Source: Lysobacter sp.
GTDB taxonomy: Bacteria > Pseudomonadota > Gammaproteobacteria > Xanthomonadales > Xanthomonadaceae
Length of the DNA: 33,673 nt
Direction: 5' to 3'
Assembly (NCBI GenBank): GCA_008015835.1
Contig: SSGH01000045.1
Location: 1 to 33,673, forward strand
This document shows positions 6,040 through 27,600 of this stretch, one piece after another. How positions within the stretch are numbered: position 1 is the first letter of the stretch; each line of letters opens with the position of its first letter. Under the pieces are notes generated by a model. That model was not told the origin of the DNA, did no database searches, and saw only the letters and a list, made by a program, of their open reading frames with translations. A program made the position numbers and the translations under genes.

Positions 6040-6330
6040 TCAGCTTCGCGTGCGGTCGCGGGGGACGGTGGTGGAGGCCACGGCCCGGGCCAGCGCCAAG
6101 GCGGCGGGACGGAACAGGTAGACCGCGAGCACGGCCGACGGCCAGGCGATCGCCCAGGCGCTCAGCCAGCGCAGCGCGAAACCGGGCGCCAAGCCGGTGT
6201 TGATCGCGGTCACCACGCCGGCCACGAAGGCGGACATGAACGTCGCCAACGCGCCCGGCAGCAGGCGTTGCGTTCGGGCGGCCACGGCCGCGTCGCGTTC
6301 GGCGGAGGACATCGCGGGTATCTCGGGCAT
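6040..6330 (-). CDS. DUF2798-type two-helix membrane protein
   Basis: The 96-residue protein has two predicted membrane helices: LLPGALATFMSAFVAGVVTA (about residues 23-42) and WLSAWAIAWPSAVLAVYLF (about residues 55-73). The first is followed by INTGL and the second is preceded by FALRW. The 'FMS-x-x-x-x-G-x-V-T-x-x-N-x-G' and 'R-W-x-x-A-W-x-x-A-W-P' patterns fit DUF2798. The function of the family is unknown. It starts 37 bp after the stop of the antiporter gene on the same strand, so the two are probably co-transcribed. ATG 6312 is an alternative start. Confidence 0.8.
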   Translation of the reverse strand: MPEIPAMSSAERDAAVAARTQRLLPGALATFMSAFVAGVVTAINTGLAPGFALRWLSAWAIAWPSAVLAVYLFRPAALALARAVASTTVPRDRTRS

Positions 6331-6367
6331 TGCGGGATGAAGGGCGTGTTCGGCGCGGCGGTTCGGT

Positions 6368-7579: not shown

Positions 7580-8227
7580 GGCGGCGATTTTCGGGGCGAA
7601 TCGGGCTTCGAGCGTAGCCCTGGCGTGCATCGCGGGCGGGCTGCGCATGGTAGCCGTATTTCGCGACCGGGACCGATCGTCGGCGGCACCGGCGGCATGC
7701 GCGGATGTCGCGCTTTCGGATCGACCCAGCGAGTCGGTGCGCTCGTCGACCGATGAAGAATTCGCTCATCAACGATCGGATTCATGCCGTTCGTCGGCGA
7801 CTGCCGGCCAAGCTGAAGCGGATTGAATTTCGCGTTGCCGATCAATGGGCCCTGGTGTTGGCCAACCTTAGGTTTGTAGCGATAGCGAGCGAACTTTTAC
7901 GAACAAAGAAATCAATTGCTTACGCTTTTTGGCGCGGGTATTTCTTATATTCTTTTGAGATATCACGCCTCCTAAGTCAATGACCTTTACGGCCGGCGTC
8001 GTGTCTGCAGAAAAGAGCTAGATGACTGTTGATCGGAACTGGTCACAGTCCATCTCGGATGAATCATCGTACTAGCATGGTGACGCGCGATATGGCTTCA
8101 GTGTCTCTATTGAGGACAAATCGGCCACCAATCGCTTCCCCAGTGCTGAAAAGGGGCGAAGCGATGGGTGGTGATCTCATATGACAGAAAGCTAATCGCA
8201 TCCCTCGTGAACGTAGGCATGTGGTCC
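7580..8227. other. Intergenic region, AT-richer than surroundings, with a hairpin
   Basis: About 650 bp without a convincing gene. Bases from about 7860 to 8260 are clearly less GC-rich than the rest of the window (for example around 7900-7980). A 76-codon frame from ATG 7753 to 7983 exists, but its sequence has no recognisable features. The large inverted repeat at 8125-8171 lies in its right half. It could be the residue of a small horizontally acquired insertion or a regulatory region for the small gene at 8228. No tRNA, integrase or target-site duplication was seen. Confidence 0.5.
8125..8171. repeat. Large imperfect inverted repeat (hairpin)
   Basis: Bases 8125-8129 (ccacc) and 8131-8138 (atcgcttc) pair with 8167-8171 and 8158-8165, with one mismatch between them. 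Three further C-G pairs extend past a single bulged base. The result is about 16 bp of stem around an 11- to 12-nt loop. There is no T tract, so it is not an ordinary terminator. It might be a structured leader, a protein-binding site or a mobile repeat; only one copy was found in this window. Confidence 0.55.
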
Positions 8228-8449
8228 ATGAATCATCCCGATAATTCTTTTAATGCCGATCCTCGATACGAAGCCTTCAAGCTACGCGAGCGGCGATTGC
8301 GGATCGACATGATTTTGAGTCATTGCGAGCGAATCGCGGCATGCATCACATTTGGTGCCGTTTTGATCTTCACCGATCATCCCGCAGCGATCGGTAGTTG
8401 GTTCGCGGTGCTCATCGCGATGATGCGCAGCGGCGCAGCGCCGACGTGA
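8228..8449 (+). CDS. Small predicted membrane protein, unknown
   Basis: From ATG 8228 the 73-residue product starts MNHPDNSFNADPRYEAF. It has a charged helix (KLRERRLRIDMILSHCER) and then two short hydrophobic stretches (IAACITFGAVLIF and AIGSWFAVLIAMM), suggesting a hairpin in the inner membrane. Other in-frame ATGs at 8219 and 8168 are possible starts. The ribosome site is weak. Codon use is less extreme in third-position GC than in neighbouring genes, which fits a recently acquired gene or chance. No family is recognised. It is listed because the charged-helix-plus-membrane-hairpin layout looks protein-like, but it could be spurious. Confidence 0.42.
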   Translation: MNHPDNSFNADPRYEAFKLRERRLRIDMILSHCERIAACITFGAVLIFTDHPAAIGSWFAVLIAMMRSGAAPT

Positions 8450-8712
8450 TTGCTGGTCGCACCTCCGCGCGACTGTCGTGCGCGTTCGCTTCGTATCGAA
8501 GCGATGCGCTCGATGTCGCCGCCGTGCAGACTCGCGCCGGTCTTCGAAGGCGATCGGCCCGCGACGACGAGGGGATCGTCGTTCGCGGCAGGCGTTTCCG
8601 GAGGCGCCCGCGCGATGTCCCATCGGTCGATTCCCCGGGCGCTTTTGGATAGGTCCCCCCGCGCCCCCGTGCTACGCTCTCGCCGTCGTTCCGCGAGAAG
8701 AGGCGTAACCCT

Positions 8713-9906
8713 TTGATTTTTCGTGCCTTACCCCGTGCGGCGGCGGTCGCGATGAGCTTGACGCTCGCCGCTTGCGCCACCCAGAAGCCGCCCGCCAAGC
8801 CGGCGCAGCCGCTGAAAGACCTGCCGGCGCCCGCGCCGGGTCCGGCCACGCCCAAGCCCGCATCGTCGCCCGAGGCCGCGCTGTTGCCGAAAGTGCCGCA
8901 GCCCCCGGAGCGCCCGGTGGCGCCGCCGTCGGTCACCGACCCCGCCATCCCGCGCGAGCAGCGCATCGCCGCGTTCGTGGACTACACCGCCACCACTTAT
9001 GGCGTCGCGCCCGAGCGCATTCGCGGCGCGTTGGCGCAGGCCGAGTACAAGCAATCCATCATCGACGCCATCACCCGCCCGGCCGAGGCGGTGAAACCTT
9101 GGCGCGAGTACCGCACGATCTTTCTGACCCAGGCGCGCATCGACGGCGGCGTGGCGTTCTATCGCGACAATCGCGCGGCGCTCGATCGCGTGGCGGCGCA
9201 GACCGGCGTGCCCGCGGAGTATGTGGTCGCGATCATCGGCGTCGAGACGTTCTACGGCCGCAACACCGGCAGTTATCGCGTGCTCGACGCGCTGTACACG
9301 CTGGCGTTCGATCACCCGAAGCGCGCGCCGTTCTTCGCCGGCGAATTGGCGCAGTTGTTCGCGTTGACCGCGCAAGAGCCGCAGCTCGACACGTCGACGC
9401 TCAAAGGCAGTTACGCGGGCGCGATGGGCATGGGCCAGTTCATGCCGTCGAGCTATCGCCTGTGGGCGAAGGACGGCGACGGCGACGGTCGCCGCGATTT
9501 GCTCACGCACAAGCCCGACGTGTTCGCGTCGATCGCGAATTATTTCGTCGTCCACGGCTGGCAGCCGGGCGGCCCGGTCGTGGCGCGCGCGTCGCGCGAT
9601 GCGGCGCTGCCGGAATTCGTGCCGGAGACGACCGAGCCGAGTGTCCCGCTGCGCGTGTTGGCCGAGCGCGGCTATCGGCCGATGCCCGGCGAAGCGCTGC
9701 CGGCGGATCCTGCCGTCGAAGGCGCCACGGTCGTGAATTTCGACGGCGACGCGGGTCGCGAACATTGGTTGGGCTATCGCAATTTCTACGTGATCACCCG
9801 CTACAACCGCTCGCCGATGTACGCGATGGCGGTGCACCAGTTGGCGCAGGCGATTCGCGCGGGCGCCGACGCCCCCGCCGCGGGCGTCGCGCCGGCCGGG
9901 AGATAA
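8713..9906 (+). CDS. mltB: Membrane-bound lytic murein transglycosylase B
   Basis: The 397-residue lipoprotein starts at TTG 8713, with GAGG about 9 bp upstream. The signal peptide ends in a lipobox LAAC with acylated Cys21. The first in-frame ATG would leave too short a signal. A Pro/Ala-rich linker (residues 22-75) spans to the catalytic domain. There the glutamate is E178 in [15 protein letters not shown], and [20 protein letters not shown] and [10 protein letters not shown] are typical of MltB. It cleaves the glycan strands of peptidoglycan from the periplasmic face of the outer membrane, giving anhydro-muropeptides. It lies 4 bp before rlpA and within a peptidoglycan gene cluster, so it is very likely co-transcribed with it. 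Confidence 0.94.
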
Positions 9907-9910
9907 GCGC

Positions 9911-11083
9911 ATGCGTGGCTTTTCCAGCATTCCGTCGAATGTTTCCCCGTGGCCCATCGCTTGCGCGTTCGCGATCGCCGCTGCGCTGAGCGGCTGCGGC
10001 AGCGCGCCGACGAAGGACGCGCCGCCGGTCGCGCAGGCGCCGCGCGACATGCCTGCGGCCGACGCCGAACCGAAACAGTCTCCGTACGCGCCCGCGCAGG
10101 AAGACCCGAGCAAGCGCGGCGACTACGTCGCCGGTGGTCTGTACGCGCCGCACGTTAAAGACAGCGTGCCCGACTACGTGCCGGACGTGGCCGCGATTCC
10201 CGAGCCGGAAGTGAAGGACGAGCCGCGTTCGCGTTTCGGCAATCGCAGCTATTCGGTGCTGGGCAAGACCTATCGCGTGCTGGAATCGGGCGAGGGTTAC
10301 GTCGAAGAGGGCATGGCCTCGTTCTACGGCAAGAAATTCCACGGCCGTCGCACCTCGAATCAAGAGGTTTACGACATGAACGCGTTCAGCGCCGCGCATC
10401 GTTCGCTGCCGCTGCCCAGCTACGTGCGCGTGACCAATCTCGATAACGGCAAGTCGGTGGTGGTGCGGGTGAACGATCGCGGCCCGTTCCATTCCGGCCG
10501 CATCATCGATTTGAGCTACGCCGCGGCGGTCAAACTCGACTTCATCCGCAAGGGCACCACGCGGGTGGAAGTGCGCGCGCTGATGCCGGACGACCTGGAG
10601 GGCCAGCGCACGGGGTCGCGCCGCGAGCGCACGCGCCGCGAACGCGCCGAGCGAACGCCGACGCCGCCGACCGGCGCCGTGGTCGCCGTCGCGCCCGCGA
10701 CGCCCACCGACCCCGCCCTGCGCGCCGAGGAATTCGACCGCTGGATGCGCGAACGCGGCGTCCGCGTCGCCAGCGGCCGGCCTGGGTCCGCGAATGCCGC
10801 GTCGACCCCGGACGCCGCGCAGGCCGCTTCGACGCAGGCCGCGGCCGTCGAAGGCGGCGTTTCGCTGCAGGTCGCCGCGTTTTCGGCGCAGGACAACGCC
10901 GAGCGCGCGCAACAGCGTCTGCGCGATGCGGGCTTACCGGTGGTGCGCATCGATGCGGGCGAAGTCGACGGCAAGCCGGTGTGGCGGTTGCGCATCGGCC
11001 CGGTCGCCGCCGATCGCGTGCCGGAACTTTCCGCGCGCTGCGCCGATCTGGGCTTCGACGCGGTTCGGGTCGTGCGCGACTGA
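9911..11083 (+). CDS. rlpA: RlpA septal lipoprotein (DPBB + SPOR)
   Basis: The 390-residue lipoprotein has lipobox LSGC (Cys29). A double-psi beta-barrel domain follows at about 130-225, with [39 protein letters not shown] and DLSYAAA. A low-complexity Arg/Thr/Pro/Ala linker covers about 230-312. A C-terminal SPOR domain spans about 315-388 ([20 protein letters not shown]). SPOR domains bind denuded glycan at division sites; RlpA of some gammaproteobacteria is itself a lytic transglycosylase acting on denuded glycan. The linker is longer and more charged than usual. The start codon lies 4 bp after the mltB stop, and dacC follows after a 206-bp gap with its own possible promoter. Confidence 0.95.
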
Positions 11084-11220
11084 AGCGCGGAACGAACGCG
11101 AACGACCGGACGCGCAAGCGTTCGATCGATCGGGCGGAGGCATCGCATCGGCGACAGAGCGAACGATCGGGAGGATCGCGATCGACGCCCGACGGGACTC
11201 GGAATCGTTTCGGGCCTCGT

Positions 11221-11226
11221 TAAAAT
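11221..11226 (+). promoter_or_regulatory. Candidate -10 element upstream of the carboxypeptidase gene
   Basis: TAAAAT stands in a GC-rich spacer, 63 bp before the ATG of the D-Ala-D-Ala carboxypeptidase gene. This is a plausible -10 box that would allow transcription separate from rlpA. No clear -35 is present at 16-18 bp. Confidence 0.35.
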
Positions 11227-11289
11227 GCCCGCTTTCGGCGCGTTCCGCGCCCTTCGCGGCTTCGCGCCGCGCACCGGAGAACTCCATCG

Positions 11290-12705
11290 ATGAGCCGCGA
11301 GGCAGATCAAGCGACCGGGACGAGTAGGCCGCGCCGTTCGGAGATCGGTCCGGGTTCGACCGCGCGCGCGCCGATTCGGCGATTCGGCGCGACGTTGGCG
11401 ATGGCGCTGTGCGTCGTCGGCGCGACCGTCGCCGTCGGCGCGATCGCCCAGGCCCCGGCCGGCAAAGAGGCGCCGACCAAATCGTCGACCACGAAACCGA
11501 CGGCCGCAAAACCGTCGACCGCGGACGCTGCGCAGGCTAAACCCACGCCATCGAAACCCGCGCCATCGAAGCCTGCGCCCGAAAACGCGACCGCCGCGGC
11601 GAAGCCGCTGGCCGTGCCCGATGCGCCGAAACCCAAATCGGCGCGCGCGTGGTTGGTGATGGACGACGCCACCGGCAAAATTCTGGCCGGCGAACGCATC
11701 GACGAGCGCTTGGAGCCCGCCAGTCTGACCAAGGTGATGACGGCGTACGTGATCGCCGCGGAACTGCAGGCCGGGCGCATCGGCGCGCACGACGCGGTGA
11801 AGATGAGCCTCAACGCCTGGCAACACGGCGGCGGCGCGCTCGACGGCCGCTACAGCGGCTTCGAGGTCAATAAAAAGGCCGACCTGACCGAAATGCTCAA
11901 AGCTATGCTGGTGCAGTCCAGCAACGATGTGGCGGTCGCGCTGGCCGAACACGTCGACGGCACCGAACCGGCGTTCGCGGCCCGAATGAACGACCACGCC
12001 AAGCGCTTGGGCATGGAGAACACCCGCTTCACCACGTCGCACGGCTTATCCGCCGAAGGCCAGTATTCCACCGCGCGCGATCTGGCGGTGCTGGGGCGTG
12101 CGTTCCTGCACGATTATCCGAACGAATACGCCTACACCAAGATTCGCGAATTCCGCGTCGGCGCGATGAACCCGCAGCTCAACCGCAATATTCTGCTGTG
12201 GCGCGACGAGTCGGTGGACGGCATCAAGACCGGCGATCACGCCCGCGCCGGCTACTGCATGCTGACCTCGGCCAAGCGCGGCGATCAGCGCTTGATCGCG
12301 GTGGTGCTGAAAGCCGCGAGCGAGGAAGAGCGCGCGGTCGATTCGCTGGCGCTGCTGAACTGGGGTTTCCGCTTCTACGAAACGCACCGCCTGTACCAAG
12401 CCGACGCCGTCATCGCCACGCACAAAATTTGGAAAGGCGAAGCCGATGCGGTGAAGCTGGGCTTGGAGCAGCCGTTGCTGGTGAGCACGCCGCGCGGCCG
12501 CTACGCCGAACTCAAGCCGTTGATGGACGTGCCCAAACGCTTGATCGCGCCGGTCAAGGCCGGCACGCCGATCGGCACCGTGCGCGTGATGCTGGACGAC
12601 AAGACCGTGATCGAAGCGCCGCTGGTGGCGATAGAATCGGTGCCCGAGGGCGGTTTCTTCAAGCGCTTGTGGCACGAATTCCTGATGTGGTGGGAGTCGG
12701 TGTGA
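11290..12705 (+). CDS. dacC: D-alanyl-D-alanine carboxypeptidase (PBP5/6 family)
   Basis: The 471-residue serine peptidase (S11) has the three penicillin-binding motifs: SLTK (Ser145, Lys148), SSN (210-212) and KTG (313-315). It trims the terminal D-Ala from peptidoglycan stem peptides in the periplasm. The C-terminal domain (about 370-455) is the beta-rich PBP5-type stalk. The last residues, FFKRLWHEFLMWWESV, form the amphipathic helix that anchors the enzyme to the inner membrane. Two features are odd. About 30 hydrophilic residues precede the hydrophobic signal segment (32-52), so a later start such as ATG 11401 is possible. A Lys/Pro/Ala/Thr linker of some 60 residues with KPAPSKPAP repeats separates signal and catalytic domain, longer than in the classic enzymes. 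Confidence 0.94.
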   Translation: MSREADQATGTSRPRRSEIGPGSTARAPIRRFGATLAMALCVVGATVAVGAIAQAPAGKEAPTKSSTTKPTAAKPSTADAAQAKPTPSKPAPSKPAPENATAAAKPLAVPDAPKPKSARAWLVMDDATGKILAGERIDERLEPASLTKVMTAYVIAAELQAGRIGAHDAVKMSLNAWQHGGGALDGRYSGFEVNKKADLTEMLKAMLVQSSNDVAVALAEHVDGTEPAFAARMNDHAKRLGMENTRFTTSHGLSAEGQYSTARDLAVLGRAFLHDYPNEYAYTKIREFRVGAMNPQLNRNILLWRDESVDGIKTGDHARAGYCMLTSAKRGDQRLIAVVLKAASEEERAVDSLALLNWGFRFYETHRLYQADAVIATHKIWKGEADAVKLGLEQPLLVSTPRGRYAELKPLMDVPKRLIAPVKAGTPIGTVRVMLDDKTVIEAPLVAIESVPEGGFFKRLWHEFLMWWESV

Positions 12706-12820
12706 CGCCTGGTTTCGCGTCGACCACGCGCCAACGCGCGTCGACGCGACGGAACGTATTGAACGCGCGGCCCCGAACCCGCAAGATCGGTCCCAGTCTC
12801 GAACGATGAGGTGAAGCGGC

Positions 12821-13120
12821 ATGGACTACAGCGAGTTCGTCGCCGTCATCGGCGAGAAGAAAGAACCCGAGATGAAGGATTTCGGGCGCGTCGCGGTGTT
12901 CGCCCAAAGCGCGGACAAGGAATTGCTGTGGACGGCCCTGGGCAGCAGCGGCGTCCATCCGATCTATCGCACGCTGATCATCCAGGCGCTGCATCAGCGC
13001 ATCATCGAAGAACTCGAGCGCGAGCAGCAGGCGCGCAAGCGCAAGCTCGAAGAAGAGGCGCGATTGGAAGCGCTGAAGGAAGAGCGCGCGCTCGACGCGC
13101 CGCGCCGCCGGCTGCGCTGA
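12821..13120 (+). CDS. Small charged protein of unknown function
   Basis: The 99-residue product has an ATG preceded by GAGGTG. The first half (FVAVIGEKKEPEMKDFGRVA, then QSADKELLWTALGSSGVHPI) looks globular. The second half is a long charged helix rich in Glu, Arg and Lys (from HQRIIEELEREQQARKRKLE on) that may form a coiled coil. It sits where many gammaproteobacteria have ybeD (DUF493) after the dacA/dacC gene, but I see no DUF493 similarity. It is probably cytosolic. No family is recognised. Confidence 0.65.
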   Translation: MDYSEFVAVIGEKKEPEMKDFGRVAVFAQSADKELLWTALGSSGVHPIYRTLIIQALHQRIIEELEREQQARKRKLEEEARLEALKEERALDAPRRRLR

Positions 13121-13160
13121 GCGTTCTGCTCTTCTCGTCGGTTCGATCCGGAGCGTCGCC

Positions 13161-13541
13161 ATGACCCACCGCAGCCGTCTCGCCGGCTTCATCATCGATT
13201 GCGAAACCGACGATCTCGGCGCCGCCGCGCGGTTTTGGAGCGATGCCCTGGGCTGGCCGATCGGCGCGCTGCCGCCCGAAGAGGCGGAGACCTACGTCAA
13301 GCTCGACGACGCGCCGGGCGGGTTGCACGTCGAAGTGCAGAAAGTGACGCATCCCTCGCGCGTGCATTTGGATATCGAGACCGACGACATCGACGCCGAA
13401 GTGGCGCGCTTGGAAGCCCTCGGCGCGAAACGCATCGCCGCCGTCCACACCTGGGTGGTGATGGAAGCCCCGACCGGCCAAAGGTTTTGCGTCGTGCGGA
13501 TGAAACATCCGGAGCGCGGGGCCACGCCGAACGTGTGGTGA
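13161..13541 (+). CDS. VOC (glyoxalase-like) family protein
   Basis: The 126-residue protein has two beta-alpha-beta-beta-beta units of the vicinal-oxygen-chelate fold. The first is GFIIDCETDDLGAAARFWSD with ALGW after it; the second is VHLDIETDDIDAEVARLEAL with WVVMEAPTGQRFCVV. It looks like the Glyoxalase_6-type subgroup often annotated simply as VOC family protein. Members of this fold bind a metal and act on small organic substrates or bind drugs; nothing here identifies the ligand. A GGAG ribosome site lies 8 bp before the ATG. It is 40 bp downstream of the small charged protein and may share its transcript. It converges with the propeller gene at 13619. Confidence 0.87.
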   Translation: MTHRSRLAGFIIDCETDDLGAAARFWSDALGWPIGALPPEEAETYVKLDDAPGGLHVEVQKVTHPSRVHLDIETDDIDAEVARLEALGAKRIAAVHTWVVMEAPTGQRFCVVRMKHPERGATPNVW

Positions 13542-13592
13542 AGCGCGTCGACCGGCCTTCGTCGCGCGTGAGCACGAGCCAAGAAAAGTAGG

Positions 13593-13616
13593 TCGCGCGT
13601 CAGCGCGAAACATATC
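13593..13616 (+). terminator. Weak candidate terminator between convergent genes
   Basis: A 6-bp inverted repeat (tcgcgc / gcgcga, loop gtca) is followed by an AT-rich stretch ending in TTTT. The stem is short and the T tract is separated from it by several bases, so this is only a possible end for the VOC-gene transcript. Confidence 0.3.
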
Positions 13617-13618
13617 TT

Positions 13619-16372
13619 TTAGCGCACCGAAATCGAATCCCGCACCGTGCCGTCGCGGTTCAGCGCCAGCAGACGGCCTGCGTGATCGAACAGAAGAATG
13701 CCGTCGGGCGTTTCGCGGCTGAGCGGTCTTGCGCCCACCGGCCAATCGAATTCGGCCAGCGCGGCGGCGTCGCGATAACGGTACAGCCCGTACGACGCCT
13801 GCCGTTCGCCGCAGAGGCCGAGCAGCGCGCCTTGCGACAGCGCGCGGAAGAAGATCGACGGCGCGGTTTCGTCGATGGGTTTGCGCAGCCGCACGCGTTG
13901 GGATTGGTGGTACCAATCGAAGCCGATTTCGATCGCGACGCGATCGTTGGCGACGACCTCGAATTGCACCGCGCCCGCATGCGGAATCAAGACCCTCGCG
14001 TTCGTGTCGTCGACGAACGTCGCTTCGCGCGACAGCAGACGTCGACTCGGAAGCTGATACGTCCACAGCTCGAACGCATCGCCGCTGCGGATCAGATGCA
14101 GCTCGTGATGCGGGGCATACTGCGACTCCACGATCGGCCCCGACAAATCGCCGACGTGCCAGAGCACGTCCTGCAGCGATGTCGCCGTATCCACCACCAG
14201 AATGCGGTCGCGCGACACCAGGCTCCAGGCGATGCCGTCGAACGCGCGCGCGTGCGCGTCGATCGGCAGCGCGCCCAGATCGACGACGCTGTGCCGCACC
14301 AGGTCCAATCGGCTCACGCGCGAGACGCGCTCGCGCGGGGCGACGGCGAGCGCGATGTTGCGGCTGTCGGCGACGACGAGGGCGTAGGCGGGCACGTCGT
14401 AGCGCCGCAGCGTGCGGCCCTCGCGATCGATCACCGCGGCGCCGGCTTCGCCCAGCGCGATCAAATAACGATGGTCGTCCAGCGCCGCTGCATCGTGGAT
14501 CGTGCGTAAGCCCGGGGCGGGCGCGTGCCAGCGCAGTCCGCCGATGCCGTCCCACAGATCGATGCGGGTTTTCATGGGCGGCACGAGCGGATGGGGCGCG
14601 TCGGCGTTCAGCCACGGATCGTCGGCGAGCTGCAGCAAGCGGTTCAGACGCGCTTTGCTGAGGTCGTGTCGGCTTTCCGCGCGATCGGCGAGCAGCGCCG
14701 GCAGAATCGCGCTCGCCACCGCGCGCGTCGCGGCGTTCTGCGTCGCCGCTTCGAGCAAGGCGTCGGCCATCGCGCGCCGGGCCTCGACGTGATGTTCGGG
14801 TTCGCCCAGGGCCGACAGTCGTTCGCCGTACAGCTCCAGCGTATCCGGCCAGCGTTCGGCGCGCCGCACCAGCGCGCGCGCGGACAGCGTTTCGCCCGCG
14901 GCCTCGGCCATGCGCAGCCAGTGGAACGCGAGGTCGCGCGCCTGCGGCACCGGCCACACCGCGTCCATCGCCGCCAACCATTGCCCGCGTTCGGCCAGCG
15001 CTTCGCCCCACGCCAAGCGCAGTTTGATCGCCAGCTCCGGTTTGTCTTTCTCCAGCGCCGCGATCGCGCTGGCGAACTCGCCGTCGCGTCGCGCCACCTG
15101 CACCGCGCGCCGCCAATCGCCCGCGAGCAGCAGCAAGCGCACGATCGTCGTCGACGGCATATCCCAGGCCAACGCCAGTTCCGCCGCCTGCGCGTGGCGG
15201 CCGTGGCGTTCGAGATAATCCAGCGCCTCTTGTTTGGCGTTCAGCAGCTCCGCCAAGACGAACAAGGCTTCGTCGATTTTGCCGGCGCGATCCAAACGCT
15301 CGAACGTTTGCCGGTAGACGCCGCGCAGGTGATCGCGAAGTGCGTCCGGCAATCCGAGGTTGGTGCCGATATCCGACGCGCCGGACAAGCGCAGATCGTC
15401 GCGTCGGCCGGGCGTGGAGAAGGCTTGGCCGCGGTTCGGGCCGGTGGCGTCGATCGGCAGCGCGTGGCGCAGCGCCTCCTGCAGGTCGCCGTCTTCGAAC
15501 ATGCGCAGCATTTTGCGCAAGTACGCGCCGTGCCGGCGACCGATCAAACTCGACACGCGCGAGGCGATGGCCAATCGCGTCAAGGCTTCGCGCCAACGCG
15601 AGGGCGCGACCGGACGTTGGCGTTCGCGCAGTCCGCTCGCGCTCGCGCCGCGCCCGCCGCCTGCGCCCGTCGCCGCGAAAGCGCCCAGCCAGCGCGCCGC
15701 GAACCGGCCCAGCCAATCTTGCGCGATCGTGCGCGCACCGTCGGCCGCGCCGCCGATGCCGATGCGACGCTTGGCCGCGCCTGCGTCCGCGGCGCGGCCG
15801 GACAAACGCTCGAGAAACGCATCGCGCTCGGCGCTCGGCGGCGGAATTTTGTCGCCCAGCAATTCGCGCACCTGCCGGCCGACCAGCGCGCTCGCGTTCG
15901 GCACCGGCAACGCCTCGCTGCAGTCGAACGGTTCGCGCAGCGCGTAATCGTCGATGTCGATCAAGCGCGAGAGATCCAGCGGCGCGCCCTCGGCTTGCCG
16001 CAGCGCGAGCACGCGCGCGCCGCGCACGATCAGCAGGTCGGCGTCCGTTCCGCTCGATGCCTGCGCGCCGCGCTCCTCGGGCCGCAGCGGCGCGCTGGTC
16101 AACGCGCCGCGCGCATCCAGGCACAGCGGCAACGCGGGCAGCGCATCGCAATCCCACCACATCGGCGCGGGATAGCGCAGCAGGTCGCCTTCGGGAAACC
16201 GCAGCGCCTTCGCGCCGGTCCGCCAATGCGCGAGCATTCGCGCCGCGCGCGCATCGGCGTGCGACGAGTCCTCGCGCGGCGCATTCGTCGTTTCGGCGGC
16301 GAACCACAGCGCCGCCACCGGCTGGACGCCGCGCCACAGCGGAACGCGTACGGCGGCGACAGGGTTAGTCAT
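13619..16372 (-). CDS. bpX6/helical-repeat/beta-propeller protein of a MoxR-vWA ternary system
   Basis: The 917-residue cytosolic protein has ATG 16372 preceded by GGGGAG, overlapping the upstream gene by 8 bp. Residues 1-200 resemble the bpX6 N-terminal domain, with ALRFPEGDLLRYPAPMWWDC. A Gly/Ala-rich linker lies near 230-250. Residues about 255-600 are helix-rich in TPR-like pairs (for example ERLDRAGKIDEALFVLAELL, then ALDYLERHGRHAQAAELALAW). Residues about 610-917 contain repeated four-strand blocks (YLIALGEAGAAVIDREGRTL; ILLFDHAGRLLALNRDGTVR) like a beta-propeller. In this type of system the propeller protein is thought to be the recognition or scaffold subunit that works with the MoxR ATPase and the vWA protein. 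It is the last gene of the four-gene block. The domain name is from memory of Pfam and should be treated as probable. Confidence 0.82.
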   Translation of the reverse strand: MTNPVAAVRVPLWRGVQPVAALWFAAETTNAPREDSSHADARAARMLAHWRTGAKALRFPEGDLLRYPAPMWWDCDALPALPLCLDARGALTSAPLRPEERGAQASSGTDADLLIVRGARVLALRQAEGAPLDLSRLIDIDDYALREPFDCSEALPVPNASALVGRQVRELLGDKIPPPSAERDAFLERLSGRAADAGAAKRRIGIGGAADGARTIAQDWLGRFAARWLGAFAATGAGGGRGASASGLRERQRPVAPSRWREALTRLAIASRVSSLIGRRHGAYLRKMLRMFEDGDLQEALRHALPIDATGPNRGQAFSTPGRRDDLRLSGASDIGTNLGLPDALRDHLRGVYRQTFERLDRAGKIDEALFVLAELLNAKQEALDYLERHGRHAQAAELALAWDMPSTTIVRLLLLAGDWRRAVQVARRDGEFASAIAALEKDKPELAIKLRLAWGEALAERGQWLAAMDAVWPVPQARDLAFHWLRMAEAAGETLSARALVRRAERWPDTLELYGERLSALGEPEHHVEARRAMADALLEAATQNAATRAVASAILPALLADRAESRHDLSKARLNRLLQLADDPWLNADAPHPLVPPMKTRIDLWDGIGGLRWHAPAPGLRTIHDAAALDDHRYLIALGEAGAAVIDREGRTLRRYDVPAYALVVADSRNIALAVAPRERVSRVSRLDLVRHSVVDLGALPIDAHARAFDGIAWSLVSRDRILVVDTATSLQDVLWHVGDLSGPIVESQYAPHHELHLIRSGDAFELWTYQLPSRRLLSREATFVDDTNARVLIPHAGAVQFEVVANDRVAIEIGFDWYHQSQRVRLRKPIDETAPSIFFRALSQGALLGLCGERQASYGLYRYRDAAALAEFDWPVGARPLSRETPDGILLFDHAGRLLALNRDGTVRDSISVR

Positions 16373-18251
16373 CGCCGTTCTCCCCGTCGGCGTTCCAACG
16401 ACGCGTCTCGCCGCCCGGCGTCAGCGCGATCAACTGCCGATCCTCGGTGATCAAGGCGATCAACGACGTATCGGTGGCGACGCTGGCGGCGGTGATACTG
16501 CGCGCCGAGGCGTACAGCGTGTCGCCGCCGACGACGCGCTGCAGCATCAAGCGTTTGCGGTCGGCGGTGATCGCGACCAATCCGTACTCCGCGGGCGCGC
16601 CCGGCACTGGCGTCAGGCCCACGACCGACCAACCGGAGGGCACTTGGATCGATTGCGCTTGCGCAAGCAGTTGTCCGCGCTCCATGCGGAACAATTGCCA
16701 GATCGACGCACTGTCGTCGCTCTGCGCGCCGCGTTGCGTGCGTACGCACCATGCGCCGCTATCGGTCACGGGGTGACCGTAAAGAAACCCTTTATCGGGC
16801 CGCTTCGGCATCGGAATCTTCGCGATGGTTCGGCTGGGTGTGCCGCGACGATGGACTCGCATCAATTCGACCGCGCCGTTGCGATTGCGAAGATACGCCA
16901 AGTGCTCCGAATCGAGGCGCATCATGGCGATGGTGTCGCAGTCGATCGGTATCGCGCACATGGCCCGATCGTGACGTTGACCCTCGAACACCGATAATTG
17001 CCCTGCGGTATCCAGCACGAACACGTGATGCGGACGCTTGCCGCCGTTGAACCACAGCGCCGGCAGCCAATGCGCTTGCCCCGGCGTCGTTTTCAACACG
17101 GCGTTATCCGGTCGCGGCAAGACGCCCATGCCTTCGATCTGCCAGAAGAACAGATGGCTCCGATCCGCGATCGCGCCGCCCATGCTTTTGCCTGCGACCG
17201 CCGCGAACAACAATTCGCTGCCGCGGCCCCAGCGCATTTTGCGCACGGCTTTTTTCGAGCGTTTCGCCTGCGGCGACAAGTTGTAGAGCATCGCCGCGCT
17301 TTCGCCCAACACCGGCACGACGATCAAACGTCCTTCCGGCCCGATCAACGGCGGTTGCCGCAGCGAGAGTTTTTCCTTCGTCTTATCGGGCGATGGATCG
17401 AGCGTATGCGTCGCCGCCACTTCGTAGGCGAAGCCGCCGCGCAGCAAGCGCGCGCTGGCTTTGCCCGGCGGTAGCGGCACGTCCACGTCGCGTCGTCCGC
17501 TGGGGCCGGCGATCTCGACGTGCAGATTCGCGTGCAGATCGCGCGCGATGACGACCCGGTGCGAGAACGCGTCCGTCGCGTCGCGCGCGCCGCCGATGCA
17601 CCAACGCTCGCCGCTTTGGCAGGGATCGGCGGCCAATGCGGCTTGCCACGCGGCGACGCGGCTCGCGTCGGCGTGGTGCAGCGTGCGCGCCGCGAGCATG
17701 CGTTTGAGCGCATGCGCATCGCCGCCGGCGTCCAGCGCGCCGGGCGCATCGAGTACGCCCCAGCGAAAGCCGATGCCGGCCTCTTGCGCGCGACGCGCGA
17801 GCAGAATCCACAGCGCGATATGCGCCAGTCGCGGCGCGCCGAACTGCGCCGGGCCGCTGTCGAACACCGCGACGATTTCGGCGTCCGCGCGCAAGGTTTC
17901 GTAGCGTGGCGACAGGAACAGATGCTCGCCGCTGCTGGCGCGGCGCAGGAATTCGTCCGGCACTTCGTCGGCCAGCGCCCACTCGCTGAGCAAGAGTCGG
18001 TGATACGGACCGCGACGACGCAGTTCGTCGATGCCGTTGGGCGTGTGCGCGCCGCGCTGCAGCGTGCCGCGATAGCGGCCCATCGCCGCGTGCAGGCGCG
18101 GCAGCATGCCGCCGATCGCCAGCGCCGAATCGTGCGGGAACCACTGCAGCCAGTCGTGCCAGGGCTGCAGCGCGCGCGGCAACGGTTGCGGTTGCGGTGC
18201 TGCCGCTGGCGCCGGCAATAACGGCAGCGAAGGAGGCCTCGTCGCGTTCAT
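16365..18251 (-). CDS. vWA-like/beta-propeller protein of a MoxR-vWA ternary system
   Basis: I start the gene at ATG 18251, whose ATGA overlaps the stop of the preceding gene. The open frame continues upstream, but only as a shadow of that gene. The 628-residue product has a Pro/Ala/Gln-rich N terminus (1-30) and a helical region (35-120). A vWA-like segment is centred on EIVAVFDSGPAQFGAPRLAH (126-144), with AHIALWILLARRAQEAG after it. The expected DxSxS metal motif is replaced by D131-S-G-P-A. From about 300 on it becomes beta-rich with propeller-like repeats (HVFVLDTAGQLSVFEG; LIALITEDRQLIALTPGG). It is probably the vWA partner of the MoxR ATPase encoded two genes upstream. No signal peptide is seen, so it should be cytosolic. 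Confidence 0.82.
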   Translation of the reverse strand: MNATRPPSLPLLPAPAAAPQPQPLPRALQPWHDWLQWFPHDSALAIGGMLPRLHAAMGRYRGTLQRGAHTPNGIDELRRRGPYHRLLLSEWALADEVPDEFLRRASSGEHLFLSPRYETLRADAEIVAVFDSGPAQFGAPRLAHIALWILLARRAQEAGIGFRWGVLDAPGALDAGGDAHALKRMLAARTLHHADASRVAAWQAALAADPCQSGERWCIGGARDATDAFSHRVVIARDLHANLHVEIAGPSGRRDVDVPLPPGKASARLLRGGFAYEVAATHTLDPSPDKTKEKLSLRQPPLIGPEGRLIVVPVLGESAAMLYNLSPQAKRSKKAVRKMRWGRGSELLFAAVAGKSMGGAIADRSHLFFWQIEGMGVLPRPDNAVLKTTPGQAHWLPALWFNGGKRPHHVFVLDTAGQLSVFEGQRHDRAMCAIPIDCDTIAMMRLDSEHLAYLRNRNGAVELMRVHRRGTPSRTIAKIPMPKRPDKGFLYGHPVTDSGAWCVRTQRGAQSDDSASIWQLFRMERGQLLAQAQSIQVPSGWSVVGLTPVPGAPAEYGLVAITADRKRLMLQRVVGGDTLYASARSITAASVATDTSLIALITEDRQLIALTPGGETRRWNADGENGDD

Positions 18252-18808
18252 CCGCGCGCCCAATACGCATCGATGCGCGCCAATACCGCCGCGCTCGCCG
18301 CCAAGGCGCGATGCAGCGGCACCAGTTGCGCGGGATCGGGCCACAGCAACATCGACGATGCGGCCTGCGCGGGCGGCAGCTTGCGCGCGAGCGCGAGCGC
18401 CAGCAGATCGAGCGGCGCGTCGGGCCGCAGATGCGTCGGCAGCCACAGCGTGGGCGCCTCGGGCCGCGGTGCGATGTAGCGCGCGCCGTCCACCCACGGC
18501 AATGCGTCGGCGGGGCCGGTGAGGATCAGCAGATCGGCGTGCGCAGTCGCCATCAACGTCGGCGTTGTCGTGCGCTCCGCGGCGGCAGGCGTTGTTGCCG
18601 CATGCTTTGTTGCCGCATGCTCGGTTGACGCATGCATCGTGGCGTCGTCGTCGGTGGCGTTATCGTCGGCGCGCGTCTCGGTTTGCGCCCGCGACAGCGG
18701 TCGATCCAATTTCGGCCGCAGCGCGCGCGCGACCACGCCCACGCCGACCACGCCCGAAGGCGACGGCGGGTCCGGGTCCGGTCGCCAACGCAAGCGCAAA
18801 GGAGTCAC
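18248..18808 (-). CDS. Small bpX-type protein of a MoxR-vWA ternary system
   Basis: I place the start at GTG 18808, 18 bp after the MoxR stop; a CTG overlapping that stop is an alternative. The 186-residue product begins MTPLRLRWRPDPDP. It then has a low-complexity middle rich in Ala, Thr, His and Asp (about residues 40-82), encoded partly by a 15-bp tandem repeat. It ends with a conserved-looking domain (ADLLILTGPADALPWVDGAR; LLWPDPAQLVPLHRALAASA). Its position between MoxR and the vWA gene, and its size, suggest the small bpX component (perhaps bpX5). I am sure of the coding frame but not of the domain number. Its TGA overlaps the next gene's ATG (ATGA), so translation is coupled. Confidence 0.75.
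   Translation of the reverse strand: MTPLRLRWRPDPDPPSPSGVVGVGVVARALRPKLDRPLSRAQTETRADDNATDDDATMHASTEHAATKHAATTPAAAERTTTPTLMATAHADLLILTGPADALPWVDGARYIAPRPEAPTLWLPTHLRPDAPLDLLALALARKLPPAQAASSMLLWPDPAQLVPLHRALAASAAVLARIDAYWARG
18594..18638. repeat. Three 15-bp tandem repeats inside the small bpX gene
   Basis: Three consecutive 15-bp units on the plus strand (gttgccgcatgcttt, gttgccgcatgctcg, gttgacgcatgcatc) encode 5-residue units H-A-S/A-T-x on the minus strand. The period is a multiple of three, so copy-number change would keep the frame. Confidence 0.85.
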
Positions 18809-18825
18809 GCGCGCAGGCTCGTCGC

Positions 18826-19953
18826 TCAGCCCTGCACACCCGCGCGCGCCACTAACGCCGCGCGCGCATCCGTCAGTTCTTGCGGTAGCGATTCGGCGTC
18901 GAAATTCGCGTCGATCTCGCGCAGCACCGCTTCGGCGAGCGTGACGCCGGTCGCGTCGTCCTCGGGGCGCTCCAAACACGCCTGCGCGGCGTCGAGCAAA
19001 CGCGCCACGCGCGACACCGGCTGCAGCGCGGCGTGTTCGACGGCCGCGCGCAGCGTGGGGTTCGCCGCCGCCGCTAACGTGTCGCGCAGCGCATCCTGCG
19101 CTTGCGCCTGCGCGGTCTGCGTCGGCATCACGTAGAACAACGGCCACAGATCGGCTTGGGTGGCGCGGGTACGACCGGCCAGCACCGTCGCGGCCGCGAC
19201 CAAACGCTGCGCCTTCACGATGCGGCGGTCCGACAGCGTCAGTCCGGCGCCGCGCAGCGTGCGGATCGCGCCGGCCAACGCGCTGCGGGCTTCGTCCATC
19301 TCTACTTGCGCCACCGCGTCGCACAGCAGGCTCAACTGCGACAGATCGGCGCAGGCGCCGACGGCGGCGCGCTCGCTGCGCCAGCCGCCTTCGAGCAGCG
19401 CTTCGAGCTGATTGTCCGGCACCGCATCGACGAACAGATGCAGCAGGAAGCGATCCGCGAACGCGGCCAGCGATTCGTCGTCCGGCAGCGCGTTCGCCGC
19501 GCCGACGCACACGCGCAGCGGGCAGCGATGCACGGTTTGGCCGCGACGGAAGCGGCGTTCGTTGAGAATGCCCAGCAGCGTGTTCAACACCGCGGTGGAG
19601 CCGAGAAAGACTTCGTCGAGGAAGGCGACGTCCGCCTCCGGCAGCATGCCGGTGACGTCGGTTTCGACCACGCCTTCGCGCAGCTTGCGCAGATCGACCG
19701 GCCCGAACAGTTCCGAGGGTTCGGTGAACCGGCCGAGCAGATATTCGAAATAGCGGCCGCCCAGCGCGCCCGCGACCCGGCGCACGATCGCGCTCTTGGC
19801 GGTGCCGGGCGGGCCGATCACCAACAAATGTTCCTGGGCCACGGCCGCGAGCACGATCAATTCGGCCATTTGTTCGCGGCCGATCATGCCGTCGGTGGCG
19901 GCGACCACGACATCGCGCAAACGCGCGGCGGATTCGGTGAGAGAAGAGGTCAT
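18826..19953 (-). CDS. MoxR-family AAA+ ATPase
   Basis: The 375-residue ATPase has Walker A GPPGTAKS (47-54), Walker B VAFLDE (109-114), sensor-1 Asn154 in CVGAANALPDDE and the likely arginine finger R168 in FADRFLL. The GRFTEPSELFGP loop (about 74-85) and LDEVFLGSTAVLNTLLGILN are typical of the MoxR/RavA branch. The C-terminal helical lid covers about 190-290, followed by a helical tail. Such ATPases work as hexamers that load or remodel vWA-domain partners, and the genes immediately downstream supply a vWA-like protein and propeller proteins. It starts 37 bp after the three-helix membrane protein gene. The ribosome site is weak. It is the best-supported member of the ternary system. Confidence 0.94.
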   Translation of the reverse strand: MTSSLTESAARLRDVVVAATDGMIGREQMAELIVLAAVAQEHLLVIGPPGTAKSAIVRRVAGALGGRYFEYLLGRFTEPSELFGPVDLRKLREGVVETDVTGMLPEADVAFLDEVFLGSTAVLNTLLGILNERRFRRGQTVHRCPLRVCVGAANALPDDESLAAFADRFLLHLFVDAVPDNQLEALLEGGWRSERAAVGACADLSQLSLLCDAVAQVEMDEARSALAGAIRTLRGAGLTLSDRRIVKAQRLVAAATVLAGRTRATQADLWPLFYVMPTQTAQAQAQDALRDTLAAAANPTLRAAVEHAALQPVSRVARLLDAAQACLERPEDDATGVTLAEAVLREIDANFDAESLPQELTDARAALVARAGVQG

Positions 19954-19990
19954 CGGGCTCGATCGAAAGAAGAAGAGAGGGATCGCGCGC

Positions 19991-20308
19991 TCACGTCGCC
20001 GCGCGGCGGCGCAGCCAACGGCGGCGAACGAAGAACGCCGTCGTCATCACCGACAGCCACACGCCGTAGCCCAGCGACGCCGCGAGCACCTGCGGCCAAA
20101 TTTTGCCGCGGCCGACGCTGGCGTTGTCGTGCGCCCAGTGGATGCTGATGAGGAACGCGACGATCGACAGCGCCAACGCGGCGATATCGAACAGCCTACG
20201 CGCGGCGTGCCGCGGCGTGCGCGGATAGCACCAATACAGCGCGCCGAGGATCGCGAACCACGGCAGAAACAGAATCAGCGATAGATTGAGTTCGATCAGC
20301 GGGTTCAT
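19991..20308 (-). CDS. Small three-helix membrane protein
   Basis: The 105-residue protein has three hydrophobic segments: LSLILFLPWFAILGALYW (about 9-26), FDIAALALSIVAFLISIHW (about 40-58) and VLAASLGYGVWLSVMTTAFF (about 74-93). A short Arg-rich tail (VRRRWLRRRAAT) follows, which should stay in the cytosol. It starts 8 bp after the trpS stop and ends 37 bp before the MoxR gene, on the same strand, so it links the two in one probable transcript. No family is recognised. Whether it belongs functionally to trpS, to the MoxR system or to neither is open. Confidence 0.8.
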   Translation of the reverse strand: MNPLIELNLSLILFLPWFAILGALYWCYPRTPRHAARRLFDIAALALSIVAFLISIHWAHDNASVGRGKIWPQVLAASLGYGVWLSVMTTAFFVRRRWLRRRAAT

Positions 20309-24295: not shown

Positions 24296-24658
24296 GGCGA
24301 TTTCCTTGTGAACGACCGTGTTCAGGGTGAGCCGGGCCGCGCTTCGGCGCAAGACTACGACCTCGCTCGCGCATGCATCCGTTTGCAGCGACCCAGCGCT
24401 GCGCACACGGCGATCGAACATCGCGCATCGAGGGCGAGGACGTCCTCGCGCGCTCGATCCGCCACGCCCGAACGAAAACGTTTCCAGCCAAGCACGGCAC
24501 GCCATCGGAGCCGTGGAGGCCGCGAGACCGTCGCCAAGCCGTCGCCGTTCCATGCCATCATGCGATGCACGTCACAGGATTGGGGGCCTGTGAGCGCGAC
24601 CGAAGTCGGAAACGACGGTCGAGGACAGCAGTTCGTTAGGCAATGGGAGTCAAGGAAC
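24296..24658. other. Intergenic region between M20 peptidase and NRPS1
   Basis: A divergent promoter region of 363 bp. I find no small gene I would support; frames across it have the composition of chance high-GC frames. A short dyad (cgaccg and cggtcg, around 24598-24621) lies 40-60 bp before the NRPS1 start and could be an operator. No clear -35/-10 pair is visible. Confidence 0.4.
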
Positions 24659-27600
24659 ATGGAGTGCGAGACCGCGCGCCGCATCCACACGATGTTCGAA
24701 CATTGGGTCGCCCGTACGCCCGACGCGGAGGCGGCGGTCGACGCCGGTACCCGCTTGAGCTATCGCGCGCTCGACGACCGCGCGAACCGTCTCGCGCGGC
24801 ATCTGCGCGCGGCCGGCGTCGGCCCGGGCGCGCGGGTCGGCATCTGCATGGATCGCGGCGTCGGCATGATCGAAGCGATCTTCGCGATCTTCAAGGCCGG
24901 CGGCGCATACGTGCCGATGGATCCGGCTTACCCGGCCCAACGTCTGCGCGAAATGACCGAAGACGCGCGGCTCGCCGCGCTGGTGGCGGATGCGACGGGG
25001 CAACGCGCGCTTGCGGCGGCGTTCGTCGATGCGGTCGCGCCGCCGACGATCGCTGTCGCCGACATCGCGACCCTCGCGATGCGCGATGCGACCGATCCGA
25101 TCGGCACCGACACCGCCCAAGCGTTCGCCTCGTCGGACGAGAACGACGATCCGGTCGCCTACGTGATCTACACCTCCGGCTCCACCGGCCGCCCGAAAGG
25201 CGTGGAAGTGACCCACGCCGCCGCGCTGCATCTGTGGCGCGCGCTCGATGCCGTGCTGTATTCGTCGGCCGTTCCGTCGACCGATCCGTCGGCCGATCCG
25301 TCGGCCGATCCGTCGGCCGATCCGTCGACCGACACGCCGAAAGCCGTCGCGCCGCATCGCGCGGCGATGAACGCGTCTTTGTCTTTCGACGTGTCGGTGC
25401 AGGGCTGGAGCCGTTTGCTGAGCGGCGACTGCGTGGTGGTGCCGTCGCAGGCCGCGAAACTCGACCCCGAACAGATGTTGGCCTTGCTCGAACGCGAGGC
25501 GGTCGATCTGTTCGATTGCACGCCCGCGCAATTGGTCGGATTGATCGACGCCGGTTTGCTGAGCCGCCCTGCGCTGGCGGGCATGACCGTGGTCGTCGCG
25601 GGCGAAGCGATTCCGCCCGCGCTGTGGACGCGGCTGCAGGCGAGCGACGGCCCGCGATTCTTCAACGCGTACGGCCCCACCGAAGCGACGGTATACGCCA
25701 CCGCGACGGCGATTCGCGGTGCCGGGCCGACGCCGCATATCGGGACGCCGCTGCCGAACGTACGCATCGAGATTCTGGACGAGACGCGTTCGCCGGTCGC
25801 GCCGGGCGCGGTCGGCGAGGTGTATATCGGCGGCGCCGGTGTGGCGCGCGGGTATCTGCATCGCCCCGAACTCACCGCCGAACGCTTCGTCGCCGATCCG
25901 CGCCGACCGGGCGAGCGCTTGTATCGCACCGGCGATCTGGGGCGTTTGCGCGACGACGGCGCGATCGACTACCTCGGCCGCAACGATTTTCAAGTGAAAA
26001 TTCGCGGGTTTCGCGTCGAATTGGGGGAAATCGAGGCGGCGATCGCGCAGATGCCAGGCGTGCGCGATGCGGTAGCGCTGATGCGCGACGACGCCAACGG
26101 TCCGCGATTGATCGCGTATTTTCGCGTCGATGCGATGGCGTCTTCGGCCGTCACCCCGATGACGATCCGCGAGGCGTTGGCGTCGCGCTTGCCGGACTAC
26201 ATGCTGCCGGCCGCCTACGTGCGCGTCGTCGCGTGGCCGCAGACGGTGAACGGCAAGCTTGATCGCGCGGCCTTGCCCGCGCCCGGCGCGGACGATGTCG
26301 CCGCCGACGCCTTCGCCGCGCCGCGCACCGCCACCGAGGGCGCGCTGGCGGCGATGTGGGCCGAACTGCTCGGCCGCGATGCGGTCGGTCGCGACGACGG
26401 GTTTCTGCGGCTCGGCGGCGATTCGCTGCGCTTGATCCAACTCGCGTCGCGCATTCGCGCCGAGTGCGCGGTGGATCTGCCCGTGCAGGCGCTGTTCGCG
26501 GCGCGCAGTTTGGCGGAGATGGCCGAGACGATCGACCGAGAGGCCGCGGCGCAGCGCGAAGACGACGGCGGTTTCGACGGTTGGACATCGCCGGATCCGC
26601 TGCCGACGCGCGTGCCGCTGTCGTATCAGCAGTCCGGCCTGTGGCTGTTGGAGCGACTGGCGTCGACCTCGATCGCGTACAACGCTCAAAACGTCATTCG
26701 CATCCGCGGCGCGCTCGATCCGGAACGGCTGGAGCGCGCGGTCGCGCGTTTGGCGCAACGCCACGAGATTCTGCGCACCACCTTCCACGACGACCGCGAG
26801 GCGGACCGCGGCGACGACCGTCTCGGCGAGCCCTACCAAGTGGTGCATCCGGATGCGCCGGGCATGTTCGTCTATCGCGCGCTGGAGACGCCGCCGGACG
26901 AGGCCGCGCTGCGCGCATTGATCGAAACCGAAGTCGCGCACGTCTTCGACCTCGCCCGCTTGCCCTTGCTGCGTTTCGCGCTGTTCGAGCTGGCGCCGGA
27001 GGATTTTTTGCTGATCCAGGTCGAGCAGCATTACGTGCACGACGGTTGGAGCATGAATCTGATCCTGCGCGAATTGCTCGCGCTATACGATGCGGATACC
27101 GATGCCGACACGGACGATGCGCTGCCGCCGCCGGCCGCCCAGTATCGCGACTACGCGCTGTGGCAGCGCAGCGAACCGGCGAAGGCGCGTTTCGCCGCGC
27201 AGGTCGCGTATTGGAAGCGCAAGCTCGAAGGCGTTTCGCTGGAACTGCCGATGCGCACCGATTTTCCGCGCCCGGCCGTGCCGTGCTACGTCGGCGACCA
27301 GGTGCGCGTGGTGCTGCCGCCCGATCTGAGTCGCGCGCTGCGCGCCTTCTGCCGCGACGAAGGCGTGACGCTGTTCGCGGCGATGCAGACTGCGTACCGC
27401 ATCACCGTCGCCTATTTCGCAGGCGGCGACGATTTCCTGATCGGTTCGGCCGTGGGCAATCGCGTCTGGCGCAACAGCGAAAGCATGGCCGGCATGTTCG
27501 TGAACATGATTCCGACCCGCTGCGATCTGTCCGGCGATCCGACCTATCGCGCGTTGATCGCGCGCACCACGGACGACCTCGCCGAAGCTTACGCGAACCA

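Follow-up and report, generated by a model that had tools for sequence, protein, structure and literature searches.

What does a MoxR-type AAA+ ATPase do when it is encoded in one operon with a small protein and two large beta-propeller proteins? The question is raised by a locus of Lysobacter sp. (assembly GCA_008015835.1, contig SSGH01000045.1); the window, the whole stretch of 33,673 nucleotides that was analysed, is one whole contig. The locus is confirmed as a complete four-gene beta-propeller MoxR-von Willebrand factor A (vWA) ternary system of the bpX5/bpX6 subtype, comprising a MoxR ATPase (bpMoxR), the small protein bpX5, a 628-aa vWA-propeller protein and a 917-aa bpX6 protein. Beta-propeller MoxR-vWA ternary systems have been described, including in Pseudomonas and Xanthomonas, and were called enigmatic conflict systems without a conventional effector (Kaur et al. 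2020, PMC7159879; statements from cited papers refer to the excerpts used here). No experiments on the bpX5/bpX6 class were found in open-licence PubMed Central papers. With little more than even confidence, we favour a RavA-ViaA-like, dispensable and niche-specific machine, which would mature or disassemble one protein complex, over an anti-phage weapon.

All four genes lie on the minus strand, between a glyoxalase-like gene and the gene of a 105-aa membrane protein. The bpX5 gene overlaps that of the 628-aa protein by ATGA, and the latter overlaps that of the 917-aa protein by 8 bp, as described in the original prediction, which had been made from the letters of the sequence alone. Pfam models for bpMoxR (298.9 bits, E 1.6e-89), bpX5 (124.6 bits, E 2.9e-36) and bpX6 (166.1 bits, E 8.3e-49) matched far above their cut-offs (27 in each case), which bears out both the predicted family and, with all four genes present, the predicted completeness of the operon. 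The expected Pfam matches were obtained for bpX5 and bpX6 but not for the VWA models, and the 628-aa protein has no Pfam match up to E 5. The host was also rightly predicted to be Lysobacter-like, as the closest named MoxR (97% identical) comes from a “Lysobacter sp.” metagenome-assembled genome. Because 12 of 14 control genomes also have bpMoxR matches above the cut-off, it is the score that counts for this assignment; in the window genome, a single bpMoxR locus is strong (300 bits), followed by two with 56 and 54 bits. The P-loop variant is kept in 78 of 81 members. RavA structures match MoxR at E ~1e-46, and RavA is its sole solved relative at E <= 1e-5. The NCBIfam RavA equivalog model matches only residues 10-270, with 155.5 bits against a cut-off of 681. 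MoxR has a single hydrophobic stretch, near residue 29 (Kyte-Doolittle value of 1.67), and no 19-residue stretch reaches 1.6 in the other three proteins, as judged by hydropathy only. bpX5 has no credible match among solved structures, and the bpX5 of the window carries a low-complexity Ala/Thr/His insert (window ~18560-18690) that is absent from eight aligned relatives (alignment A8).

The four genes are a strict unit. Among 198 genomes of the family, Pfam models found bpX6 in 11 and bpX5 in the identical 11; this count was taken from Pfam because our own bpX5 profile was contaminated by frames overlapping MoxR. Among 398 genomes at the phylum level, bpX6 occurs in 3, the window genome included. 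Gene order is identical in ten fetched relatives, in one of which (L029) a contig end cuts bpX6. A scan with the MoxR alignment gave 80 named loci, from Lysobacter, Xanthomonas, Stenotrophomonas, Tahibacter, Pseudomonas, Chromobacterium, Massilia and relatives, Myxococcales, an acidobacterium and others. In 73 of the 81 sources (these loci and the window), MoxR, vWA-propeller and bpX6 genes follow one another on one strand and in one order; the other eight each end at a contig end, so the arrangement is beyond chance. A match to the bpX5 profile ends between MoxR and the vWA gene in all 73 (72 at E < 1e-15 and L122 at 1e-14). Neither outcome named beforehand as contrary to the assignment was found, namely, large proteins with other folds and no bpX or VWA match or orthologues scattered without MoxR.

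Eight genomes of the window's genus are shown, of which four carry the cassette and four do not. The flanking genes of the non-carriers (G013, G089, G115, and G137) are in the same order, and the 16 kb fetched from each gave no match at E 0.01 to any of the four proteins. At the empty site of two of them, the matches to the 105-aa and glyoxalase proteins end 28 and 22 bases apart; the 105-aa gene was not detected beside the empty site of G089, and that of G115 (L048, ~7470-9050) is a gap of ~1.6 kb in which none of the four is matched. The cassette is therefore dispensable. Carriers and non-carriers are mixed in a genus tree of flanking proteins, G061 grouping with G013, and G189 with G115 and G137, both with support of 100 (one further node has 78 and deeper nodes have 42-51). 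The four operons of the genus share one genomic site, and in the operon tree a single clade holds the window together with the three named loci of its genus. The best fit is an ancestral cassette that was lost several times as a whole block; several gains at a single site are also possible.

Identity of the 628-aa protein as a vWA-propeller protein rests on intermediate sequences. Its AlphaFold2 model (56 rows; mean predicted local distance difference test [pLDDT] of 87.0 and predicted template modelling score [pTM] of 0.60) has an alpha/beta N-terminal part followed by a propeller of ~28 strands. A 510-aa protein of a Myxococcales genome adjoins a second bpMoxR and matches both the profile of the N-domain (residues 256-338) and a vWA profile (residues 328-436), the two matches meeting at the first Asp of the metal-ion-dependent adhesion site (MIDAS). 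The N-domain profile gave 27 matches in 26 of 188 genomes of the same phylum; ten were full-type matches, and the other 17 were weaker (E 7e-8 to 2e-4). All 17 weaker intermediates have D-x-S-x-S directly past the shared stretch, and one of them, whose gene adjoins a bpMoxR, matches a standard vWA profile as well. Only one of the 18 matched stretches in these intermediates lacks the motif, a second match in L219 that is spurious. Five of the 17 have a MoxR match in the fetched locus (loci were short), and one weakly matches PF19997, under its cut-off; L225 is the gene adjoining bpMoxR in L192. In L192, a receiver-domain-like gene (6164-6559; Pfam match just under the cut-off) sits in the bpX5 position, flanked by the genes of bpMoxR and the D-x-S-x-S vWA protein.

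In the 628-aa family (alignment A4: the window plus 55 of the 63 entries that the filter left of 73), the region past the Asp is in register with the intermediates, as read by eye from the alignment. The MIDAS serines are replaced by the motif D131-x-G133-P134-x-Q136-x-G138, in which D131 is conserved in 52 of 56 members, G133 in 56, P134 in 53, Q136 in 54 and G138 in 56. The first Ser position is thus Gly in 56/56, and the second is Ser in only 4/56. Because D-x-G-P-x-Q-x-G is conserved where the serines stood, the metal site looks to have been exchanged for another conserved motif rather than merely decayed. Two loci have unusual copies of this gene. Massilia frigida (L130, 9466-13127) has a tandem pair of vWA-propeller genes in one operon. 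In Xanthomonas phaseoli pv. phaseoli ATCC 49119 (L065, ~8876-14052), which the coverage filter dropped for its split frames, matches to the vWA-propeller and bpX6 proteins are spread over several frames, and the locus looks like a decaying copy or one with sequence errors.

In the AlphaFold2 model of the 917-aa protein (50 rows; mean pLDDT of 86.2 and pTM of 0.77), a linker of low confidence joins an alpha/beta N-terminal (bpX6) domain to an alpha-solenoid, which is followed by a propeller. The original proposal of one vWA-propeller and one helical-propeller protein was therefore borne out by modelling, the vWA part through the intermediates. The 917-aa protein had also been proposed as the recognition subunit, a role that stays putative, as the model gives its architecture only. 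The third component of Kaur et al. has a highly variable N-terminal region, a membrane-spanning segment and C-terminal TPR-like and propeller regions (PMC7159879). In contrast, the bpX6 domain is found in 50/50 aligned members (alignment A5: the window and 49 of 58 filtered entries, 70 before the filter; all collected with the operon), with no hypervariable part seen, and the window bpX6 has no membrane segment. The linker reaches a hydropathy of at least 1.6 in 25 of the 50 bpX6 proteins, i.e., 12 of 13 from Pseudomonas, 12 of 13 from beta-proteobacteria and that of Abditibacterium; two hydrophobic segments occur in 14 of these linkers, one in ten and three in one. None of 16 Xanthomonadales proteins reaches this value (the maximum in the window is 0.60), and seven proteins from Myxococcota/delta, Acidobacteria, Zooshikella and one further bacterium also lack a hydrophobic linker. 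The complex of Lysobacteraceae, including the window form, is probably cytosolic, since its bpX6 linker has no membrane segment. The hydrophobic, often two-segmented linker probably ties the complex to the inner membrane in Pseudomonas and most of the beta-proteobacteria seen.

The system had originally been described as possibly conflict-related, as Kaur et al. proposed for the class (PMC7159879). In a conflict (anti-phage or anti-invader) system, MoxR-vWA would set a threshold, and the N-terminal part of bpX6 would sense or act as an effector near the membrane; we regard this as the most serious alternative, if a doubtful one. Several points favour it or otherwise weigh against a dispensable machine. 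Presence is patchy, the whole unit being absent from many genomes, and the 11/198 and 3/398 counts at the family and phylum levels fit a conflict system too. In Pseudomonas syringae clade 2b-a, ravA, bpX5, a gene annotated by structure code only and bpX6 lie in one genomic plasticity region (PMC9677677). An IetA-like ATPase gene is divergent from MoxR in four Lysobacter loci tested (PADLOC IetA, E 1e-27 to 7e-30). The bpX6 linker, with its hydrophobic segment in 25/50 proteins, is the faster part in several of ten close pairs compared, and the first 60 codons of the vWA-protein gene have a nonsynonymous rate (dN) above the synonymous rate (dS) in the pair L061/L062 (0.082/0.062). The vWA identity is also open to objection. 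Pfam VWA models match none of the 56 family members, the N-domain was not recognised when its profile was compared against 28 vWA sequences (probability of 0.2%, against 99.8% for a vWA control), and the MIDAS check of the intermediates covered D-x-S-x-S only. Foldseek searches with the 628-aa and 917-aa models returned chiefly propeller proteins, whose template modelling scores over the whole chain were low; the best 50 for the 628-aa model were dominated by such proteins, and its propeller region alone was recovered. Limits of the selection, flank and tree results count on the same side and are given with those results.

Searches of selection, mobile elements and phages gave no positive evidence for conflict, which patchy presence and the IetA-like neighbour in Lysobacter keep possible. 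No PADLOC model matched the four proteins at E <= 1e-3; the best was at E 0.0013 (MoxR against the RtcR model), and the other three proteins had none up to E 1. Whole-gene dN/dS was below 0.4 in all ten pairs (0.01-0.11 for MoxR, 0.08-0.25 for the vWA protein, and 0.06-0.37 for bpX6), which were hand-chosen, used two loci twice and covered these three genes; whole-gene averages may hide single-site selection. The flank scan covered 136 of 158 open reading frames (ORFs) from 57 of 76 loci, with no ORFs of >900 aa and none from L116. Flanks were mostly ordinary genes, with LysR (7) and MFS (6) as the commonest families. No single family of integrases or transposases matched as many as two flanking ORFs, and each PADLOC model matched two at most, in a survey that had no control set and listed the 25 most frequent among 127 Pfam and 47 PADLOC families. 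No relative of bpX6 was found in 50,697 phage records or in a viral-contig scan, and the plasmid set gave one match, on a 5.7-Mb Embleya record with a MoxR a few kilobases off. Xanthomonadales, Oxalobacteraceae and Pseudomonas are broadly grouped by name in the operon tree (70 of 81 sources, with L123 as root for display), the grouping being judged by taxon names alone. Exceptions include Achromobacter beside one Pseudomonas, and the Tahibacter operon is placed among Lysobacteraceae. Tahibacter belongs to a different family. Overall, the evolution of the operon suggests a dispensable machine more than an arms-race system.

Three candidates raised by the neighbourhood were rejected. An IetAS system in Lysobacter was suggested by the IetA-like ATPase, but the next gene, in L055 and L056, encodes a TPR protein without a PADLOC match. 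Control by sigma-54, prompted by RtcR-like matches of two flanking ORFs, was not supported, as the pattern used occurred in none of 81 upstream regions, some of them short. No recurrent partner gene across genera was found: among the 25 clusters listed, the largest that crosses genera touches 11 of the 81 loci, in which its distance and strand vary, and most of the others represent synteny within the window's genus, whose members carry different labels and inflate the number of genera counted.

An unlikely alternative is that the operon serves as the chaperone of a single membrane or respiratory enzyme, like RavA-ViaA or NorQ-NorD, with an ancestral place at the inner membrane and an anchor that Lysobacteraceae lost. 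RavA being the closest solved ATPase and the hydrophobic linkers of Pseudomonas and beta-proteobacteria agree with it, but no gene family among the 25 clusters listed is fixed beside the operon across genera, and the anchor may have been gained rather than lost, because the seven bpX6 proteins from Myxococcota/delta and the other groups named with them lack the segment (that of Abditibacterium has one). Least probable is a MoxR-propeller machine without any vWA, for which the failed Pfam and profile comparisons speak, since the 17 intermediates share the preceding conserved stretch, then have D-x-S-x-S, and stay in register with the family past the Asp.

For the remodelling machine that we favour, mechanism can be outlined from related systems. 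MoxR would form a RavA-like hexameric ATPase ring, as in its family, and the vWA domain of the 628-aa protein would sit on this ring as a coupler, by analogy with NorQ/NorD, where the vWA protein was proposed as a ring plug and altering the MIDAS leaves ring binding intact but eliminates target activity (PMC9976466). The domain probably grips no target via metal, because conserved D-x-G-P-x-Q-x-G replaces the MIDAS serines. The propeller of the vWA protein and the solenoid and propeller of bpX6 may hold the target or a scaffold during ATP-driven remodelling, with bpX5 as a putative small adaptor. More tentatively, and at well under even confidence, the family may be a distinct, non-conflict MoxR machine, mainly vertically inherited and often lost, in which the metal site became a D-x-G-P-x-Q-x-G contact site and target capture moved from MIDAS to the propellers, with a cytosolic form in Lysobacteraceae and relatives and a membrane-tied form in Pseudomonas and most beta-proteobacteria seen.

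Comparison with known systems places the operon within the class of Kaur et al., with which it shares a bpMoxR with the GXXXTAKS P-loop, a divergent vWA with a C-terminal propeller and a helical/propeller third component. Unlike in the account of Kaur et al., the first MIDAS Asp is kept in most members while the serine positions are replaced, and the propellers of the window were modelled with ~28 strands each (about seven blades by our own strand count), compared to “about four blades.” RavA-ViaA of Escherichia coli also has a MoxR AAA+ beside a vWA protein, but the RavA match is limited to residues ~8-271, and the propellers, bpX5, bpX6 and replaced MIDAS serines set the present system apart. 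NorQ-NorD is likewise a MoxR-vWA pair; however, NorD needs its MIDAS residues for target activity, and the excerpts used state no counterpart of the propellers (PMC9976466). FtsH-type ternary systems (ivWA) have the P-loop variant and a divergent vWA in common with these systems according to Kaur et al. (PMC7159879), and the weak PF19997 match of one intermediate is a further resemblance, but an FtsH-like component is not among the four genes of the window.

Features of the operon, its flanks and the neighbouring gene of four Lysobacter loci (positions refer to the window unless a locus is named)
Feature	Position	Strand	Basis or description
MoxR AAA+ ATPase (bpMoxR), 375 aa	18826-19953	-	PF20030; P-loop GPPGTAKS
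bpX5 small protein, ~186 aa, GTG start	~18248-18808	-	PF19921; start inferred from relatives
vWA-propeller protein, 628 aa	16365-18251	-	vWA-like N-domain ~62-276, then beta-propeller; no Pfam match
bpX6 protein, 917 aa	13619-16372	-	bpX6 domain 8-189, disordered linker without transmembrane segment, alpha-solenoid ~343-591, propeller ~613-915
Block present or absent as a unit	13542-19990	.	Same flanks without the four genes in G013, G089, G115 and G137
Glyoxalase-like gene, flank of block	13161-13541	+	
105-aa membrane-protein gene, other flank of block	19991-20308	-	
IetA-like ATPase	L055 6376-7890; L056 6316-7791; L059 6376-7776; L060 6333-7703	-	PADLOC IetA

Elsewhere in the window, a frame of 1,897 aa on the plus strand (24308-30001) resembles a non-ribosomal peptide synthetase, with two AMP-binding, one condensation and two PP-binding stretches.

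The class itself was previously predicted; the apparently exchanged MIDAS, the two probable localisation forms and an evolution that resembles a dispensable machine's more than an arms race are new here. In addition, the analysis provides handles on the family, i.e., a strict four-gene unit, presence and absence at one site in sister genomes, a defined motif in place of the MIDAS serines, and cytosolic and membrane-tied forms. If the favoured reading is true, these systems would shift from presumed immunity to target-specific remodelling, and a MoxR partner could work without MIDAS.

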